Shown here: positions 12,069 through 31,278 of the stretch, piece by piece | Numbering within the stretch: position 1 is the first letter of the stretch | Layout: each line of letters begins with the position of its first letter | Virus record (IMG/VR): IMGVR_UViG_3300049855_000129 | Span: 1 to 31,278 of that record | Source: a virus | Length of the DNA stretch: 31,278 nucleotides | Direction: 5' to 3' (one strand) | Program-made: the position numbers and the translations under genes | The notes under the pieces: model-generated | Databases searched by the model: none | Told to the model about the DNA's origin: nothing | What the model saw: the letters and a program-made list of their open reading frames with translations, nothing else

Positions 12069-12099
12069 AAAAAAAAGAGGCTACCACCTTGATAGCCTC
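12069..12099 (-). terminator. Rho-independent terminator after the tail tube gene
   Basis: On the minus strand GAGGCTA and TAGCCTC pair perfectly (7 bp) around a 9-base loop and are followed by eight T residues. It lies about 24 bases after the stop of the tail tube gene. A terminator here would raise tube mRNA relative to the chaperone and tape measure genes downstream, which are needed in much smaller numbers. Confidence 0.93.
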
Positions 12100-12122
12100 C
12101 GCACGAAATCCTCTCTCACTGA

Positions 12123-16144: not shown

Positions 16145-19100
16145 TTAAGCACAACTAAAAGCATTACGACAAGAGAAAGAAGTACATTTGCCAACAGGTT
16201 TTTCTGTTCCTGTTTCTGAATTATAAGAAATTGTTGAAATAGGAGTCTTTTGCAATTCACCTTGTGGATTATTTATTGTTAATGTTCCATCAAGTTGTAA
16301 ATTAAATTGGTTAGTACACCAAATACCTTTTGTGATTGTAATATCACTATTACCTAAAATGTCGTTTTGATATTTATTTATATTTGATTTTTGAATCACT
16401 GAGCCATTATTTTTATTTATTTCTAATAGTCCAATAGGAATGTTGTCTGCAACGTCTCCATTTATAAGTTGTTCGCCTGTACCATTTAATTTCCAAAGAG
16501 GTGAATTAACGATAGTTGGATTTGCGTCAATAGATACTCCTGCATCAATCATCAAATCGCCACCTAAATAAACAGTGCCTTGTGTTGATTCCCAAATTAT
16601 TTTGGCATTAGCCTTAATTCGCAAATAACCTGTAATATGAAGGTCTGTGTCAATTCTCGTTTGTACTGAACCTCCTAAGTTAATAACCATATTAGGAATA
16701 GGTATAGTCAACATATAAATAAAAGCGTCTTGACTTCCAACAAACGCAACTTCCACAGTTGGTTGAGTTCCTGTAAATGATAAATTTGGTGCTGTACCCA
16801 TATATAGTTGGCTATCAAAATTGAATGTTGAAACTTTTCTAATTGAACCATCTAACATTGCTACATCAGAGGAATTTATTGCATTAAAATTAATTGAGCC
16901 AGAACCTTTTCCATTATTTAATTTACAACATTTAGGTGTAGAACCATTTTGTGTAAATACTTGGGCACCTGTTCCTATTAGTAAAAATAATTCGTAACAA
17001 GAACCATTTACTAAACTTGAATTGTAAAAGTTACCAGAAATTGAAATAGTTACTGTAGAGGATCCCCATGTATTATTGCTACCATTTGCTGTAAAATTAG
17101 TCAAAGTCGCATTGTTACCAAAAGCAAAGGTGCTTGAAGTTCTATTTAATTCTAAGTCGTTAATTACTTTAGCTACAACATTTGTTCCAAGATCCAAAAC
17201 GCTATTTGGGTAACTAGATAAACCAGAATGAGGAGTATATGTATCAAAAGTAATTACAGAAGTCAATGTTGTGCTTTTTGTGTATGTAGCAACAGAAGCA
17301 ATAGAATAATTTGTATCAGTAATTCTTGTTCCACCATCGGCTTCAGTCCAAGAACCTCCAAAAACAAATAAATTACCAAATTCATGTTTTTGAGTACCGC
17401 CTGTGAACACACCGCCATTCATTCTAAGTGTGTTTCTTAGAATAATCTTTTTAGTAGTACAAGCAAGTGTTCCTTGATCTAATTGCAAATCTATGTTGGA
17501 TTCATTTGCTGTTGAATAAGGCACATTAAAAGTTAAATCAGAATTCAAAGTTAAAGTCCCACCTGTTTTAGCAATTAATATTTGAGCAAAACAATTTGCT
17601 GAACCACTAATTGCTTGTGAACCTGAACCATTAAATGTTAAATGTGACATTTTCCCATTGGCTGTTGTGAAAATAACATCACCACCAACAAAGCAATCAG
17701 GGAAGTTATTAGCACCTGATTGATTATTGAATTCTAAGTTATGGCTTACAATTGGGTATGCTGTTCCAAATTGAACTGTAATACCACTTCCAATATTCAA
17801 AGTCAAATCATAAAATTGTGCATTGCTGAATGTGAAAAATGTTACCAATGGTTTAACTGTAACTTTATGACTATTCCAAGTAATTGTTCCTGTTGTGTGT
17901 GTCCATGATTTCAAAGCATTCAAATCTGTATTAAATACTAATGCCCCCGATGCTTTATTTATTGTAAACGAACCAACATCCGTACCATCAAAAGTTTGTG
18001 TTCCTGTTCCTGTAAATGATAAATTACATGAACCATTTGTTCCAACAAAACTTGCAGTCGCACCACTTAAAGTAGCTGTCATTAAATTAGAAACTTTGTC
18101 CATTGAAGTAAGAGTCAAAGTTCCTGCAACAGTAATTGAACCTGAAATCAATGTGCTAGAAGCACCAATATCAATTTCAACATTGTTCAATGAAGAAGTT
18201 GAACGAATACCTGTGCTTACTGAACCTAAAACTTTTACTGAACCGCTATTGTGAGTGAATGTTCCACCTGTTTGGTCGAATGCGAAGTTATTTAAAATAG
18301 CACCAACTTGTAATAATCCCGATGTGCTTGTAAATGTTCCTGTTACAAGTCTGAAATATCCTGCAATTGTAATCGCTTGAGTTGAACCTGTGAATGTCCC
18401 ATTAGTAACTTCAAATCCACCTGCACCAACTGTAATACTTGTATTTTGAGTAATCGTTCCAGTATAACCTAGAGTTACTTTAATTCCTAAACAATTTACA
18501 TTGGCATCCATGTTGCAATTTGCAACTGAAATAGCTGTGAATAAAGCAATATCTGTTGTTGAAGGCACGTTTCCACCTTGCCAATTTGCACCTAAATTCC
18601 AAACACCTGTGCCACCCAACCATGTAAATAATGCTGTTGTCAATCCTGTCCATCCAGTATTGCCACCGCCATCAGCACTATTTGTTCCTGCATTGAATGT
18701 TGCACCGCCTGAAACAGTTGATTTTGTAATTATTAAATAATCGCAATTTACTGTTCCACTTGCTTTAGACCATGTGAAGGCTGTAGTCGTAGTTGACCTG
18801 AGTGAAATTAGATTTCCTGCACTGCCAACACAAGTGATTGTCCCTGTAAATGTAGTAGTTGTTCCCGTAGTGAAAGCCAAAGTATGAACTGTAGATTTGG
18901 TTGTAAAATTGTTCCATGTCATTGTTCCTGAGAATGTATAAACTGCATCACCTGCACCACTGATAGTAAGATTATTCATAGTTCTTGAAGTACCTGAACC
19001 AGTGATATTCTTAGCTGTGGCACTTGCATCTGTAATTAAAATAACTGAACTTGCACCACTGAAAGTTGTTGGGAATGAAGTTACGTTTAAAACCGTTCCT

Positions 19101-20749
19101 GTTCCTGTAAGTGTAATCGTTCCATTTCCTAAAGTAGCATTATGGCAGTCAACAACTAATTTTCCGCCTGTATAATTCTTATTGTTGAAATCCCAAATAC
19201 CAGAATTCAATTGTAATGTAGAACCAACTGGAAGATTAATTGCATCTTGCATCGTGTAGGTATTTGTGGAATTTGTTGAGAAAAACAAATTCAAACAAGG
19301 AATAGTAATTCCGTTTGTAGTAATCGTAAATGAATTGCTAGTTCCATTTCCTGCCAAAGTAATAAATAAATTAGCATAAGCTGTGATTGTCATTGAAGCT
19401 GAAAATGTGACATTACCATAAATATTAATATCGTTTTGAATATCAAATGTAGGCGAATTTGTAACGCCTGTCCAGTCCATGTTTTGTCCTGCACGAGATA
19501 TACCAACATTGGTATAACCTGTTATTTGTACAGTCACGCCTGTTGTTACAAAACTTGCTGAATCAAATCTAGTATTGTCTTGTGGAAGTGGAACTCTACC
19601 TGCCCCACCTGTACCACCTGATCCAAGAAACCAATTTGCTGAGTTAAACCAATCTTTCACACCTGTTGTTGCTGAATACCAAAATTGAGTGGCACCTGTT
19701 GTAAATACTATTCCTGTATTTCCACCTATATCACCACTTCCACCTGTTACGGCTGAAAGATTATTTGTATTTGTCAAAGTAATATTTTGGAAGTCACAAT
19801 ACTGACCTGTCACACAAGTTGTATTTGGAACTGTTAGAGTTCTAATTGTTGAACCATTTGAATGTAGTCTTAGTCGTCTTGCAGAAGAGTACCCATTCAT
19901 TACGATTGCATTCGATGTAGCTGTGCAAGTGAAACTGTTATTTAATTGAAGTCTATCTTCTCTGCCATCACCTAAATCTGCACCACCATAAACTTTTACT
20001 GATTTAAATACTGGAGTTCCACCACTTGCAATTGTAGCGATTCCACCACCTCTAAATTCCAAGTTGAAATCCCATGTTATAGTACCACTTTGAAATAACG
20101 GTGCTGAACATTGAAGTGAACGATACAATTTAATTGTGGCTGTGTTTGCTGTAACTGTTAATCCTGTTACTGTTGCACAAAGAAAACAGTTATTTCCAAT
20201 GCCTGTAAGTTCCATTAATGTAGAACCAAAAGTTATCGTTCTTGTATTACTATTACTTGAGTTAAATTGACCACCTGCATGATAGCCATTGTTAGTGTTA
20301 TAAGTTCCTTTGGTAATATTTAAAGTGGCAAAAGCTGACCAATAATGTTGACCAGTTAACCAAGAACCAGTACCATTGTATGTAACATTTCCTGTTGTCT
20401 TTCCACCCCAATTAACTGTTTGTTGTGTGGCAGAAGTAGAAACAAAAGTAATTGCACTTGTAGCATAATCATTAAGAATATAAATCATTGAAGAAGAAAA
20501 ACGTAATGCTCTATTTCCTGCACCTGCTGTAGCATCACCAATTGTTAAAGTAGCACCTGCATTGTGAATTATAATTCCAACGTGAAGGTTTAAATCTATT
20601 GAACGGCATACCGCACCTGAGTCTATTGTGAGTGTCCCACTTGTAGCTGTTGCCACAACATCGTCTGAAGCTAGTGGAACAGCACCTTCAACCCATGTGC
20701 CGATTGCTGACCATAAACCACCACCGTTTGCAATAGTTCTTGTAGCCAT
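16145..20749 (-). CDS. 1534-aa beta-rich giant, adhesin- or fibre-like, in the head/neck region
   Basis: This is the largest gene of the window. The protein is Thr/Ser/Asn/Gly-rich with endless short beta-strands (TLTIDSGA, ITFGSTLMELTG, GTLTLNSDLTF), typical of a right-handed beta-helix or filamentous adhesin. Three 'W-x-G-x-W...NW-x-G-x-VP-x-x-D' modules start new sections: near residues 10-35 (GGLWSAIGTWVEGAVPLASDD), about 356-400 (DWFNSANW, RVPLPQDNTRFDSA) and about 700-735 (WLGGTGVWNLGANWQGGNVP). The C-terminus (VGKCTSFSCRNAFSCA) packs three Cys in 14 residues. No signal peptide is present. It follows the 91-aa gene with a one-base overlap. Role as head fibre, side fibre or appendage is uncertain. 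Confidence 0.75.
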   Translation of the reverse strand: MATRTIANGGGLWSAIGTWVEGAVPLASDDVVATATSGTLTIDSGAVCRSIDLNLHVGIIIHNAGATLTIGDATAGAGNRALRFSSSMIYILNDYATSAITFVSTSATQQTVNWGGKTTGNVTYNGTGSWLTGQHYWSAFATLNITKGTYNTNNGYHAGGQFNSSNSNTRTITFGSTLMELTGIGNNCFLCATVTGLTVTANTATIKLYRSLQCSAPLFQSGTITWDFNLEFRGGGIATIASGGTPVFKSVKVYGGADLGDGREDRLQLNNSFTCTATSNAIVMNGYSSARRLRLHSNGSTIRTLTVPNTTCVTGQYCDFQNITLTNTNNLSAVTGGSGDIGGNTGIVFTTGATQFWYSATTGVKDWFNSANWFLGSGGTGGAGRVPLPQDNTRFDSASFVTTGVTVQITGYTNVGISRAGQNMDWTGVTNSPTFDIQNDINIYGNVTFSASMTITAYANLFITLAGNGTSNSFTITTNGITIPCLNLFFSTNSTNTYTMQDAINLPVGSTLQLNSGIWDFNNKNYTGGKLVVDCHNATLGNGTITLTGTGTVLNVTSFPTTFSGASSVILITDASATAKNITGSGTSRTMNNLTISGAGDAVYTFSGTMTWNNFTTKSTVHTLAFTTGTTTTFTGTITCVGSAGNLISLRSTTTTAFTWSKASGTVNCDYLIITKSTVSGGATFNAGTNSADGGGNTGWTGLTTALFTWLGGTGVWNLGANWQGGNVPSTTDIALFTAISVANCNMDANVNCLGIKVTLGYTGTITQNTSITVGAGGFEVTNGTFTGSTQAITIAGYFRLVTGTFTSTSGLLQVGAILNNFAFDQTGGTFTHNSGSVKVLGSVSTGIRSTSSLNNVEIDIGASSTLISGSITVAGTLTLTSMDKVSNLMTATLSGATASFVGTNGSCNLSFTGTGTQTFDGTDVGSFTINKASGALVFNTDLNALKSWTHTTGTITWNSHKVTVKPLVTFFTFSNAQFYDLTLNIGSGITVQFGTAYPIVSHNLEFNNQSGANNFPDCFVGGDVIFTTANGKMSHLTFNGSGSQAISGSANCFAQILIAKTGGTLTLNSDLTFNVPYSTANESNIDLQLDQGTLACTTKKIILRNTLRMNGGVFTGGTQKHEFGNLFVFGGSWTEADGGTRITDTNYSIASVATYTKSTTLTSVITFDTYTPHSGLSSYPNSVLDLGTNVVAKVINDLELNRTSSTFAFGNNATLTNFTANGSNNTWGSSTVTISISGNFYNSSLVNGSCYELFLLIGTGAQVFTQNGSTPKCCKLNNGKGSGSINFNAINSSDVAMLDGSIRKVSTFNFDSQLYMGTAPNLSFTGTQPTVEVAFVGSQDAFIYMLTIPIPNMVINLGGSVQTRIDTDLHITGYLRIKANAKIIWESTQGTVYLGGDLMIDAGVSIDANPTIVNSPLWKLNGTGEQLINGDVADNIPIGLLEINKNNGSVIQKSNINKYQNDILGNSDITITKGIWCTNQFNLQLDGTLTINNPQGELQKTPISTISYNSETGTEKPVGKCTSFSCRNAFSCA

Positions 20750-22038: not shown

Positions 22039-22088
22039 AAAAAAAAGAGGTGCGATAGGGTTCTTTGGGGAGAACCGCTACCGCCCTC
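22039..22088 (-). terminator. Strong rho-independent terminator after the major capsid gene
   Basis: On the minus strand the stem GAGG GCG GTAG c GGTTCT pairs with AGAACC CTAT CGC a CCTC: about 17 bp with one bulge on each side, a short CCCCAA loop, and then eight T residues. It begins about 21 bases after the capsid stop. It should cap the capsid-rich part of the mRNA and reduce transcription of the accessory and neck genes downstream. Confidence 0.93.
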
Positions 22089-22108
22089 GATCACTAGCCT
22101 AAGCCAGA

Positions 22109-23179: not shown

Positions 23180-23211
23180 AAGGTAAGTTCAATATAAATT
23201 GTTCTTACCTT
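23180..23211 (-). repeat. 8-bp inverted repeat before the capsid gene
   Basis: AAGGTAAG and CTTACCTT are exact reverse complements around a 16-base AT-rich spacer, in the 124-base gap between scaffold and capsid. A TACTTTGTTTT follows on the minus strand. It could be a weak terminator, an RNA-processing hairpin or a 5'-end stabiliser for capsid mRNA. I found no convincing promoter in the gap. Confidence 0.45.
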
Positions 23212-23240
23212 GAATTGGCTGTAGAGAATTTATCGTAAAC

Positions 23241-28933: not shown

Positions 28934-29389
28934 CTAATTCCCCTCGTTCGGATACAAACCGCTTACACTTCGCCCATTAGCATCAACAACTAGCGACTTC
29001 TTCCCTCTCGCCTTCCTCTGCAAATCATCGCAAACCTCGTTCAGATACTTCAGCGTACTATGCAACCTTGCGTTCTCGTCTCCCTGCGCTCGGATAACCG
29101 CATTTCCCTTAACTAGCTCTGATTCTAATCTCTTACACTCCGCAACCATCTTCCCCCAATTGATAACCACCTGCCTAGCACGAGACTCATAATCCTCTAT
29201 CACCACCATGCACTGCTTGTTCGCACTAACAGCATTCGTATATAGGACACGCAATTGATCGGCATTCAAATCGGATAAGGGAATCTCGGATTCTGGATCG
29301 GACGGAACTGGCAACTCGGACTGACTTGGAAACAACGGAACTACTCGGTTAGACTCGGATTGCTCGGACGGCAACTCACTTGACTGCAT
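28934..29389 (-). CDS. Ser-Glu-rich coiled-coil protein, first gene of packaging operon
   Basis: This is a 151-residue protein with a Ser/Glu/Pro-rich head (about 1-40: SSELPSEQSESN, PSQSELPVPSDPESEIP). A helical section follows (DLNADQLRVLYTNAVSANKQCMVVIEDYESRARQ, then RLESELVKGNAVIRAQGDENARLHSTLKYLNE, in parts) and a basic end (RKARGKKSLVV). GGGGAG precedes the ATG by 5 bases. No family is recognised. It is the first protein gene after the attenuator-like leader, so the leader would control this and the packaging genes together. Confidence 0.65.
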   Translation of the reverse strand: MQSSELPSEQSESNRVVPLFPSQSELPVPSDPESEIPLSDLNADQLRVLYTNAVSANKQCMVVIEDYESRARQVVINWGKMVAECKRLESELVKGNAVIRAQGDENARLHSTLKYLNEVCDDLQRKARGKKSLVVDANGRSVSGLYPNEGN

Positions 29390-29412
29390 AAGAACTCCCC
29401 AAAGAACTTTTT

Positions 29413-29459
29413 ATAAAAAAATCTCAGGAATTCTGCTTAGATGGCAGACCCTTGAGATT
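29413..29459 (-). terminator. Rho-independent terminator in the packaging-operon leader
   Basis: On the minus strand AATCTCA pairs with TGAGATT (7 bp), then GG with CC past an A bulge, and an inner TCTGC/GCAGA stem closes a 7-base loop. A tract of seven T residues follows. It lies between the tRNA and the first protein gene. The inner stem's 5' part (TCTGCCATCTA) can pair instead with an upstream segment, so termination may be conditional. Confidence 0.85.
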
Positions 29460-29526
29460 TTATCGGTCTTTCCCGACTGCCACCTACCAGCGTATTTCTA
29501 CGCCTTCGCGCCCTCTGCGAATGTAG
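29438..29526 (-). ncRNA. Attenuator-like structured leader RNA with competing helices
   Basis: The minus-strand RNA between the tRNA and terminator has a hairpin with a GAAA tetraloop (GCGTA/TACGC, 29490-29503) and a small TCGG/CCGA hairpin (29463-29476). TAGGTGGCAG (29486-29477) can form a 10-bp helix, one G-U pair included, with CTGCCATCTA (29447-29438). That second segment forms part of the terminator's inner stem and loop, so the two structures exclude each other, as in attenuators, riboswitches and put-like antiterminators. No known riboswitch class is recognised. The competition is visible in sequence, and its function is inference. Confidence 0.6.
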
Positions 29527-29597
29527 TAGCCTAAAATGGAATCGAACCATTGACTTAGCTTTATGAGAGCTACGAGATACCACTTCTCTATCAGGCG
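29527..29597 (-). tRNA. tRNA with CAT anticodon (Met or Ile2 type)
   Basis: All arms are present: acceptor CGCCTGA against TTAGGCT (six pairs, one G-U, with a C-U mismatch at position 1-72), D-arm GAGA/TCTC with GG in the loop, anticodon arm TAGCT/AGCTA with loop CTCATAA, T-arm AATGG/CCATT with loop TTCGATT, 4-base variable loop and A73. CCA is not encoded. The CAT anticodon gives Met, or Ile if lysidine-modified. The unpaired 1-72 position recalls initiator tRNAs, but the usual three G-C pairs at the anticodon stem are missing. It starts just after a strong promoter. Confidence 0.92.
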
Positions 29598-29608
29598 GTA
29601 AAAGACTC

Positions 29609-29636
29609 ATTTTACACTCGATTTGCCTGTTGTCAA
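29609..29636 (-). promoter_or_regulatory. Strong sigma70-type promoter of the leftward operon/tRNA
   Basis: On the minus strand TTGACA (29636-29631, perfect -35) is followed by 16 bases and TAAAAT (29614-29609, near-perfect -10). The predicted start of RNA at about 29602 lies only about 5 bases before the tRNA's first base. It would drive the tRNA and, if the attenuator is passed, the packaging and structural genes. Confidence 0.85.
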
Positions 29637-29746
29637 TAGTTCGTAAAAATCGGTGGTGAATTTAACGGGCGTATCACACACTCTCTCTCTTGCGCGGGGG
29701 TGGTGGTAGGTACTTGCCTAACTACAATAGCAAGCAAGACAAGCGA

Positions 29747-29799
29747 CTACCTACCTACATACCTACATACATACCTAGCTACTACTACTACTACTACTA
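29747..29799. repeat. Microsatellite: CTAC/CATA units and (CTA)7
   Basis: Units of CTAC and ACATAC run into seven perfect CTA triplets (29779-29799). The stretch has no coding logic. Nearby GGTAGGTA (from 29704) is the complement of TACCTACC here, so a foldback is possible. Copy number may vary between isolates. Confidence 0.8.
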
Positions 29800-29976
29800 A
29801 CAATACATACTCGACTATATACTCGATAATCATATATCGTTATAATTGTATCTTATGCCGATATCTATATAACCTGTTGATACATAAGCACTTACAAAAT
29901 AGTCATTACGACAATCTTGCAATCTACTATACATATATATAGCTCGTATCGTTCTATTGTCACTATGACATAACAG

Positions 29977-30018
29977 CGGACTCTCTATACAACCTAACGG
30001 ACAATCCATACAACCTAT
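29977..30018. repeat. Two tandem 21-bp direct repeats
   Basis: Both units have CGGAC, five variable bases, then ATACAACCTA and one more base. 17 of 21 positions match. The 21-bp period is two DNA turns, so a protein could bind both on one face, as at operators or iterons. Confidence 0.75.
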
Positions 30019-30130
30019 GGTTGAGTCGTGCTGGATGTAAAAATAGGCGGTAAAAAATAAACATTAAGAAAAAAGCGTATAAAAAGACAGTACCTAGCCC
30101 TCGTTATATCATGATAAACCCTTAATATAG

Positions 30131-30155
30131 CCTTAAGATACAAGCAAGATATAAG
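30131..30155. repeat. 25-bp direct repeat, copy 1
   Basis: CCTTAAGATA-CA-AGCAAGATATAAG is repeated at 30356-30379 with one base change and one base missing, 225 bases apart. CCTTA and TAAGG at the ends of this copy are also an inverted pair. Confidence 0.75.
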
Positions 30156-30355
30156 GAAATAGTTTACAGTTTGAATACTTTCGCACAGTATGAATTAAGA
30201 CGCAAGAAAAAAGCTATAAACCATTGATAATAAAGGATTTAACTCTCTTATATATTAATATATAAATATATCTTGTATGCTTTAAAGTATTTGTTGTAAA
30301 CAAATTTATCATTTAGTAAATTTTACTCTCTTTTTACAGGTTTACCCCCCCCTAC

Positions 30356-30379
30356 CCTTAAGATATAGCAAGATATAAG
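30356..30379. repeat. 25-bp direct repeat, copy 2 (24 bp)
   Basis: CCTTAAGATA-T-AGCAAGATATAAG, the second copy of the 30131 repeat, lies directly after a run of eight C bases (30345-30352) and TACC. Confidence 0.75.
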
Positions 30380-30429
30380 CTATTAAAACAAATATATAGT
30401 GGTATTTGTATATAACAGGCATGTTTATA

Positions 30430-30482
30430 AGTTTACTGTTAGTCAAAAGGCTATCGTTGTTTAGTTTACTATTAGTCAAAAG
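30430..30482. repeat. Two 20-bp direct repeats upstream of the rightward promoter
   Basis: AGTTTACTGTTAGTCAAAAG (30430-30449) and AGTTTACTATTAGTCAAAAG (30463-30482) differ at one base and are 33 bp apart, about three DNA turns. A shorter relative, AGTTTACAGTTTG, is at about 30161. They end 28 bases before the -35 of the promoter at 30511, a position that suits regulator binding. Confidence 0.8.
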
Positions 30483-30510
30483 AAATATGATAAATAATCA
30501 ATAATAATTG

Positions 30511-30539
30511 TTGAAATTTTAGTAGTTGTATGATATACT
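30511..30539 (+). promoter_or_regulatory. Rightward promoter with extended -10
   Basis: TTGAAA (30511-30516), 17 bases, and TATACT (30534-30539) preceded by TGA (extended -10, TGN). RNA would start near 30546, about 50 bases before the lipoprotein gene. The 20-bp direct repeats lie just upstream. Confidence 0.82.
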
Positions 30540-30594
30540 ATAGCTATAAGAGTTAAGGAAGTTTGAAGGTGAAAATTTTTGAAAGGGTGAGATT

Positions 30595-30846
30595 ATGAAA
30601 TATTTTTTTCTATTGGTGATAGTTTTTTCTTTATTCGCTTGCAATGGTCAAAAAGGCGAAAATGTAGAAATTCAAGATCAGATTGATTTTTACGAGGTTA
30701 AGGGTGATATAGAAATGAAGTACGGAAAGCCTTTGAATATTAGAATTAATTCTGAAGGCAATTCTGTATTTTACTATACTGATTTTTCAATTGAGGTGGT
30801 ATGTTTTGAAGATAACAGTTATAAATTAATTAAATCGGTTTTATAA
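30595..30846 (+). CDS. Small phage lipoprotein, possible exclusion factor
   Basis: This is an 83-residue protein with a signal peptide (MKYFFLLVIVFSLFAC) and lipobox LFAC, with Cys at residue 16 then Asn-Gly-Gln. The mature part, about 67 residues, is acidic and beta-prone (FYEVKGDIEMKYGKPLNIRIN, VFYYTDFSIEVVCFEDN). AAGGGTGAG precedes the ATG by a few bases. It is the first gene of the rightward block and has its own promoter. Small lipoproteins expressed this way (for example T5 Llp) can block phage receptors, but no sequence match is claimed. Host-modifying lipoprotein is the safest reading. Confidence 0.75.
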   Translation: MKYFFLLVIVFSLFACNGQKGENVEIQDQIDFYEVKGDIEMKYGKPLNIRINSEGNSVFYYTDFSIEVVCFEDNSYKLIKSVL

Positions 30847-30905
30847 AATTAAATCTAGTTGGATAGTGCGACTAGCAAATAAAAATTTTTTGAAAGGGTG
30901 ATATT

Positions 30906-31025
30906 ATGAAAACAATCAAGATATACAGAAAAATAGTTTTGGCTAGTAGTTGTGGAAGTTTGCAAGAATATTTGAAAAAGTGTGTGTTTGTTAATAGTTG
31001 TTTTGACAGTGAGTTTTTAAATTAA
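30906..31025 (+). CDS. 39-aa Cys-containing small protein
   Basis: This small ORF (ATG at 30906, TAA ending at 31025) encodes MKTIKIYRKIVLASSCGSLQ and EYLKKCVFVNSCFDSEFLN, with a basic start and three Cys. It has the same leader as the lipoprotein gene: the 25 or so bases before its ATG nearly copy those before 30595. It could be a regulatory or leader peptide, or a real small protein. No family is recognised, and confidence rests mainly on the ribosome site. Confidence 0.5.
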   Translation: MKTIKIYRKIVLASSCGSLQEYLKKCVFVNSCFDSEFLN

Positions 31026-31046: not shown

Positions 31047-31278
31047 ATGGCAAAATTTATGCTTGATAATGAAAATTCGATTGACTATATAGATGTTACA
31101 ACAGATTGTAATAATCCTAGAATTGCAATTCACTACCTAGATTTTTTAAGATTAGTTAAAAAATCAACTAATTTAAGTTATGAATGGGCATTAAATTATG
31201 CAAGAAAATTTAACGGTAAAAAATTTCATAATAAAAAAATGGGGGGCGGTATTGTTTTTTATTCGCATCATGCTGAAA
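31047..31278 (+). CDS. Partial hypothetical gene cut by the window end
   Basis: The first 77 codons are visible, with AAGGGGTGG about 5 bases before the ATG. The protein begins MAKFMLDNENSIDYIDVTTD, followed by NNPRIAIHYLDFLRLVKKS, LSYEWALNYARKFNGKKFHN and a GGGIVFY segment. It is A/T-rich in codon choice (Lys AAA, Asn AAT), like its neighbours. No family is recognised from this part. It continues the rightward block. Confidence 0.6.
   Translation, partial: MAKFMLDNENSIDYIDVTTDCNNPRIAIHYLDFLRLVKKSTNLSYEWALNYARKFNGKKFHNKKMGGGIVFYSHHAE

Follow-up and report, generated by a model that had tools for sequence, protein, structure and literature searches.

A promoter, a tRNA and an intrinsic terminator at the head of a siphovirus late operon

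The 6S RNA/tR′ system of phage lambda, which involves Q, combines a late promoter with a leader of ~190 nt that ends at an intrinsic terminator. In phages L and Sf6, tRNA genes head the Q-controlled late operons (PMC8022706). Phage L has two of them close to the operon's 5′ end, beginning 46 bp past the presumed late start, and the operon also contains a terminator (PMC8022706). In the Sf6 annotation the order is PR′, tR′, tRNA-Asn, tRNA-Thr and lysis genes, and a Q-like protein is encoded as well.

A cellular case is the metY-rimP-nusA-infB operon of E. coli, where an initiator tRNA comes first, terminators and protein genes follow, and processing frees the tRNA from the transcript (PMC6511841). 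At the metY locus compared here, a promoter with 12 of 12 matches is followed by the terminators t1 and t2 (1592-1569 and 1544-1532) and then by rimP-nusA. An earlier note on the DNA described below, made from the sequence alone, regarded a tRNA at the head of such a leader as unusual, a view that does not stand beside the precedents in L and Sf6 (PMC8022706) and in metY-nusA-infB (PMC6511841).

The window studied here is a whole IMG/VR record of 31,278 bp with a G+C content of ~36%. It carries a late operon of the siphovirus type on the minus strand, and small genes run rightward from 30595. The closest relatives are far off, with at most 58% identity in the terminase and at most 64% in the major capsid protein (alignments of 80 loci each). 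The elements that open the late operon are the following:

29609..29636, minus strand: sigma-70-type promoter, TTGACA-16 bp-TAAAAT, 11 of 12 matches
29526..29597, minus strand: tRNA gene with anticodon CAU, CCA not encoded (ARAGORN, Rfam)
29415..29461, minus strand: intrinsic terminator, made of a hairpin (29461-29418) and a U tract (U7, 29421-29415)
29395..29400, minus strand: ribosome-binding site GGGGAG of the first late gene (from the sequence)
28934..29389, minus strand: gene 1 of the late operon, a 151-aa orphan protein (gene call and PHROG/Pfam search)
28932-28327, minus strand: VRR-NUC/Holliday-resolvase-like nuclease
27825-27235, minus strand: terminase small subunit (phrog_5334)

Further along, the operon encodes the terminase large subunit, portal, scaffold, major capsid, connectors and tail genes. 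Among the structural genes, 16145-20749 (minus strand) codes for a 1534-aa protein that has neither PHROG nor Pfam matches.

About 950 bp without a clear gene (29640-30594) separate the diverging gene sets. This stretch holds simple CTA/CTAC repeats (29747-29799) and short direct repeats (29977-30017 and 30423-30482). On the plus strand, a 29-nt near-identical pair (30572-30600 and 30883-30911) contains the ribosome-binding site and the start of small rightward genes. At the right end, a truncated ORF (31047-31277, plus strand) matches Pfam Phage_TreK, a Staphylococcus phage terminal-repeat protein, with 32.2 bits against a cut-off of 22.

The promoter, the tRNA and the terminator with its T-tract had all been read from the letters by the earlier note, and each of them is borne out. 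The -10 hexamer lies 11 bp from the tRNA, and the RNA start would be near 29602. A shuffled window is expected to hold ~3 promoter sites with at least 11 of 12 matches, counting both strands; the match by itself is therefore not strong and counts against the reading that we prefer below. Finding one of this quality at exactly 29636-29609 is unlikely by chance but not decisive.

ARAGORN reports a CAT tRNA, and the Rfam family RF00005 matches it with 57.8 bits (E 4.8e-11). The molecule bears marks of the initiator type, namely an unpaired C1 against U72 and an A11:U24 pair, with a D arm that reads GAGAAG-TGGTA-TCTC. Its anticodon stem is UAGCU/AGCUA, and the three G:C pairs (GGG/CCC) of initiator tRNAs are absent. 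Phage initiator-type tRNAs retrieved with a partial pattern, which did not include the 1:72 mismatch, share the acceptor and D-arm marks but carry GGG/CCC. The present tRNA may be a phage initiator that has diverged, or one that has been reused. It may equally be an elongator tRNA for Met, and a role as Ile2 is also possible, because AUA makes up 156 of the 636 Ile codons in the late genes.

A search with the exact tRNA pattern gave no match, and a search of 398 genomes of one phylum found no such tRNA, a result that says little because the search had no positive control. No CAU tRNA stands shortly before the packaging genes in the related loci aligned by terminase or capsid. At one other locus, L213, a terminator comes after a similar tRNA, and an unrelated gene after that.

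The terminator hairpin has a predicted energy of -17.1 kcal/mol, compared with a shuffle mean of -7.2, and was equalled in stability by none of 1000 shuffles. The U tract ends only 25 nt ahead of the start codon of the first late gene (29389). These 25 nt include the ribosome-binding site, and no -35/-10 pair was found in them. They leave no room for a promoter, so the late genes must be reached by terminator read-through, whichever upstream promoter is used. A single promoter, then the tRNA and then the terminator precede the late operon, whose expression depends on passing that terminator; to this extent the reading of the earlier note is supported.

The same note had called this stretch the leader of a packaging operon. 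The first gene is an orphan: its 151-aa product has no PHROG or Pfam match and only one short match of 39%, in an unrelated contig and outside the listed ORFs. The terminase small subunit comes fourth.

We consider it probable (roughly 0.65) that these elements form a tRNA-first leader of the late operon, packaging and structural genes included, with read-through set at the polymerase. A host-type RNA polymerase would start at the promoter, transcribe the initiator-type tRNA and meet the terminator, which ends at ~29415. RNAs stopping there would be tRNA precursors and those reading through would carry the late genes, the tRNA being presumably excised from both kinds by tRNA-processing enzymes. 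Control of read-through at the polymerase could take two forms, to which we give roughly equal odds. The operon terminators may be leaky and thereby fix gene dosage, or a phage factor may enable the polymerase to resist terminators late in infection, in the manner of Q in lambdoid phages. No Q gene or Q binding element was seen in the 31-kb fragment, whose early side is nearly all missing.

Additional terminators lie inside the late operon:

22048..22089, minus strand: strong intrinsic terminator directly behind the major capsid gene and ahead of the next ribosome-binding site (-26 kcal/mol, U8)
12076..12100, minus strand: strong intrinsic terminator after the gene of a 508-aa tail protein and before the next ribosome-binding site (-15.9 kcal/mol, U8)
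23181..23212, minus strand: weaker terminator-like hairpin in the gap between scaffold and major capsid genes

A GGGGAGT ribosome-binding site directly follows each of the two strong ones. Since these further strong terminators each stand directly before a ribosome-binding site, passing terminators appears to be a need of the whole operon. With at least two of them present, leaky terminators or a terminator-resistant polymerase become more likely than a local ligand switch.

The gene at 22094-21609 (minus strand) is listed with a GTG start upstream of the post-capsid terminator. Translation probably begins instead at the ATG that follows GGGGAGT.

The same promoter, tRNA and terminator could also be read as a stand-alone tRNA gene, since they already make a complete unit. 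The late genes would then have their promoter elsewhere, either far upstream on the minus strand or at a site that depends on a phage factor, such as TATAAAAA at 29415. The order of tRNA, terminator and unrelated gene at L213 fits such a unit and counts against a tRNA-first leader, and the ~1 kb upstream (29640-30594) is without clear genes. Transcription from a distant promoter would, however, still have to read through the leader terminator. As for TATAAAAA, which we take to resemble the T4 late promoter box and which would speak for a separate start, the motif at 29415 follows naturally from the U tract. It also occurs at four other minus-strand and four plus-strand sites, mostly within genes, and a T4-like late promoter at 29415 is thus unsupported. 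On balance, we regard a stand-alone tRNA gene as unlikely.

Between the tRNA and the U tract, several further pairings can be drawn:

29505..29521, minus strand: small hairpin A, TTCGC...GCGAA (predicted)
29489..29504, minus strand: small hairpin B, GGCGTA-GAAA-TACGCT (predicted)
29477..29486, minus strand: 5′ arm of a proposed antiterminator helix, TAGGTGGCAG
29463..29476, minus strand: small hairpin C, TCGG...CCGA, stacked on the proposed helix (predicted)
29438..29447, minus strand: 3′ arm of the proposed antiterminator helix, CTGCCATCTA

The helix of TAGGTGGCAG with CTGCCATCTA has 10 bp, one of them a G-U pair, and is the predicted fold of an RNA that ends before the 3′ arm of the terminator. 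Folding predicts two RNA conformations, so that both pairing options described by the earlier note are indeed available. When the growing RNA is folded, the helix has a probability of 0.98-0.999 until the outer terminator arm emerges, after which the terminator takes over with at least 0.99.

These predictions would suit a local attenuator, in which the helix (29486-29477/29447-29438) forms first and blocks the terminator, while a ligand, a protein or tRNA processing decides the outcome, much as the earlier note suggested. The barrier on the direct path from helix to terminator is 17.8 kcal/mol, an upper bound for nested structures with pseudoknots ignored, and the first fold could therefore persist. 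Additionally, the other three terminators of the operon have no comparable upstream helix (the longest has 8 bp), and the leader as a whole folds better than shuffles (z from -3.4 to -3.95).

Against an attenuator speaks how readily such a helix arises. When the 61 nt upstream were shuffled and the terminator was kept, a helix at least as long appeared in 121 of 2000 shuffles (6%), and shuffles of the same 61 nt reached the stability of the duplex in 205 of 2000 cases. Among native controls, predicted in loci mostly of related phages, 37 of 409 strong terminators (9%) have an upstream helix of at least 10 bp beside them; for hairpins of similar size the count is 27 of 224 (12%). A pairing that chance supplies in 6% of shuffles and that about one native terminator in ten can match is hardly a special feature.

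The geometry also weakens the proposed competition. The part of the terminator that the helix covers is just the inner 5-bp stem (TCTGC/GCAGA); the outer 9-12 bp beside the U tract, AAAATCTCA/TGAGATTTT plus GG/CC, are left free. Judging from the coordinates, the outer stem could pair across the helix and coexist with it as an H-type pseudoknot.

Comparative searches likewise tell against an attenuator. No homologue of the leader was found by nhmmer in 173 loci, and blastn gave no match in the phage collection. The exact helix pattern occurs in 26 viral contigs, none of them in a comparable terminator context, one T-run aside. In the Rfam search of the leader only the tRNA passed its gathering score and neither a riboswitch nor a T-box was reported; SpF36 matched at E 0.15, under its cut-off. 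We hold a local attenuator to be quite unlikely.

More doubtful still is a switch made up of the helix and the terminator, perhaps with a pseudoknot of the two, that would be set by folding or excision of the upstream tRNA. If true, it would mean that a phage couples late transcription to tRNA maturation.

Two other candidates were set aside. The sequence GGTGGCA recalls the UGGN core of a T-box, but it is fully paired, the bulge is absent and so is an Rfam match. In the minimum free energy fold of the whole leader, the anticodon arm of the tRNA is paired with the ribosome-binding region; we take this to be an artefact, because the tRNA folds on its own.

The put RNA of phage HK022, to which the leader had been likened, is ~70 nt long and forms two long stem-loops (PMC9378689). 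The present leader resembles it in having two adjacent small hairpins, A and B, before the terminators. Together these span just 33 nt, which falls short of a put-like element, and no similarity was found to the HK022 stretches compared, in which put is not annotated.

In its present state the finding is for the most part ordinary. Promoter, tRNA and terminator are real, and other phages as well as E. coli already provide examples of their layout.

The lambda 6S/tR′ leader shares with the present one a late promoter, a length of ~190 nt and an intrinsic terminator before the late genes. It differs in being without a tRNA and in having Q and its binding site, neither of which was found in the present incomplete record.

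In L and Sf6 (P22-like, phage 21 type), tRNAs also head the late operon behind a presumed single promoter. Sf6 likewise has an intrinsic terminator in its leader, and phage L, like this virus, has a further terminator in its late operon. Unlike here, L and Sf6 have two elongator tRNAs, lysis genes are their first protein genes and a Q-like gene is known next door. In addition, the Sf6 terminator precedes the tRNAs whereas here it follows, so that the phage precedent is inexact, which counts against a tRNA-first leader with read-through set at the polymerase.

The metY leader supplies the order seen in this virus: a strong promoter, a tRNA as the first gene, intrinsic termination and a protein operon reached by read-through. 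The elements that mark the metY type, a promoter directly upstream of the tRNA and an intrinsic terminator between the tRNA and the first protein gene, are both present here. The two leaders have no sequence similarity, and metY differs in being cellular, in having two tandem terminators and an internal promoter, P2, and in encoding a full initiator tRNA with GGG/CCC.

If the preferred reading of a tRNA-first leader is right, a low-GC and otherwise unrelated siphovirus joins the phages in which a tRNA heads a terminator-controlled late operon, as in metY-nusA. Should the tRNA itself influence read-through, phage tRNAs would gain a regulatory role besides their part in translation.
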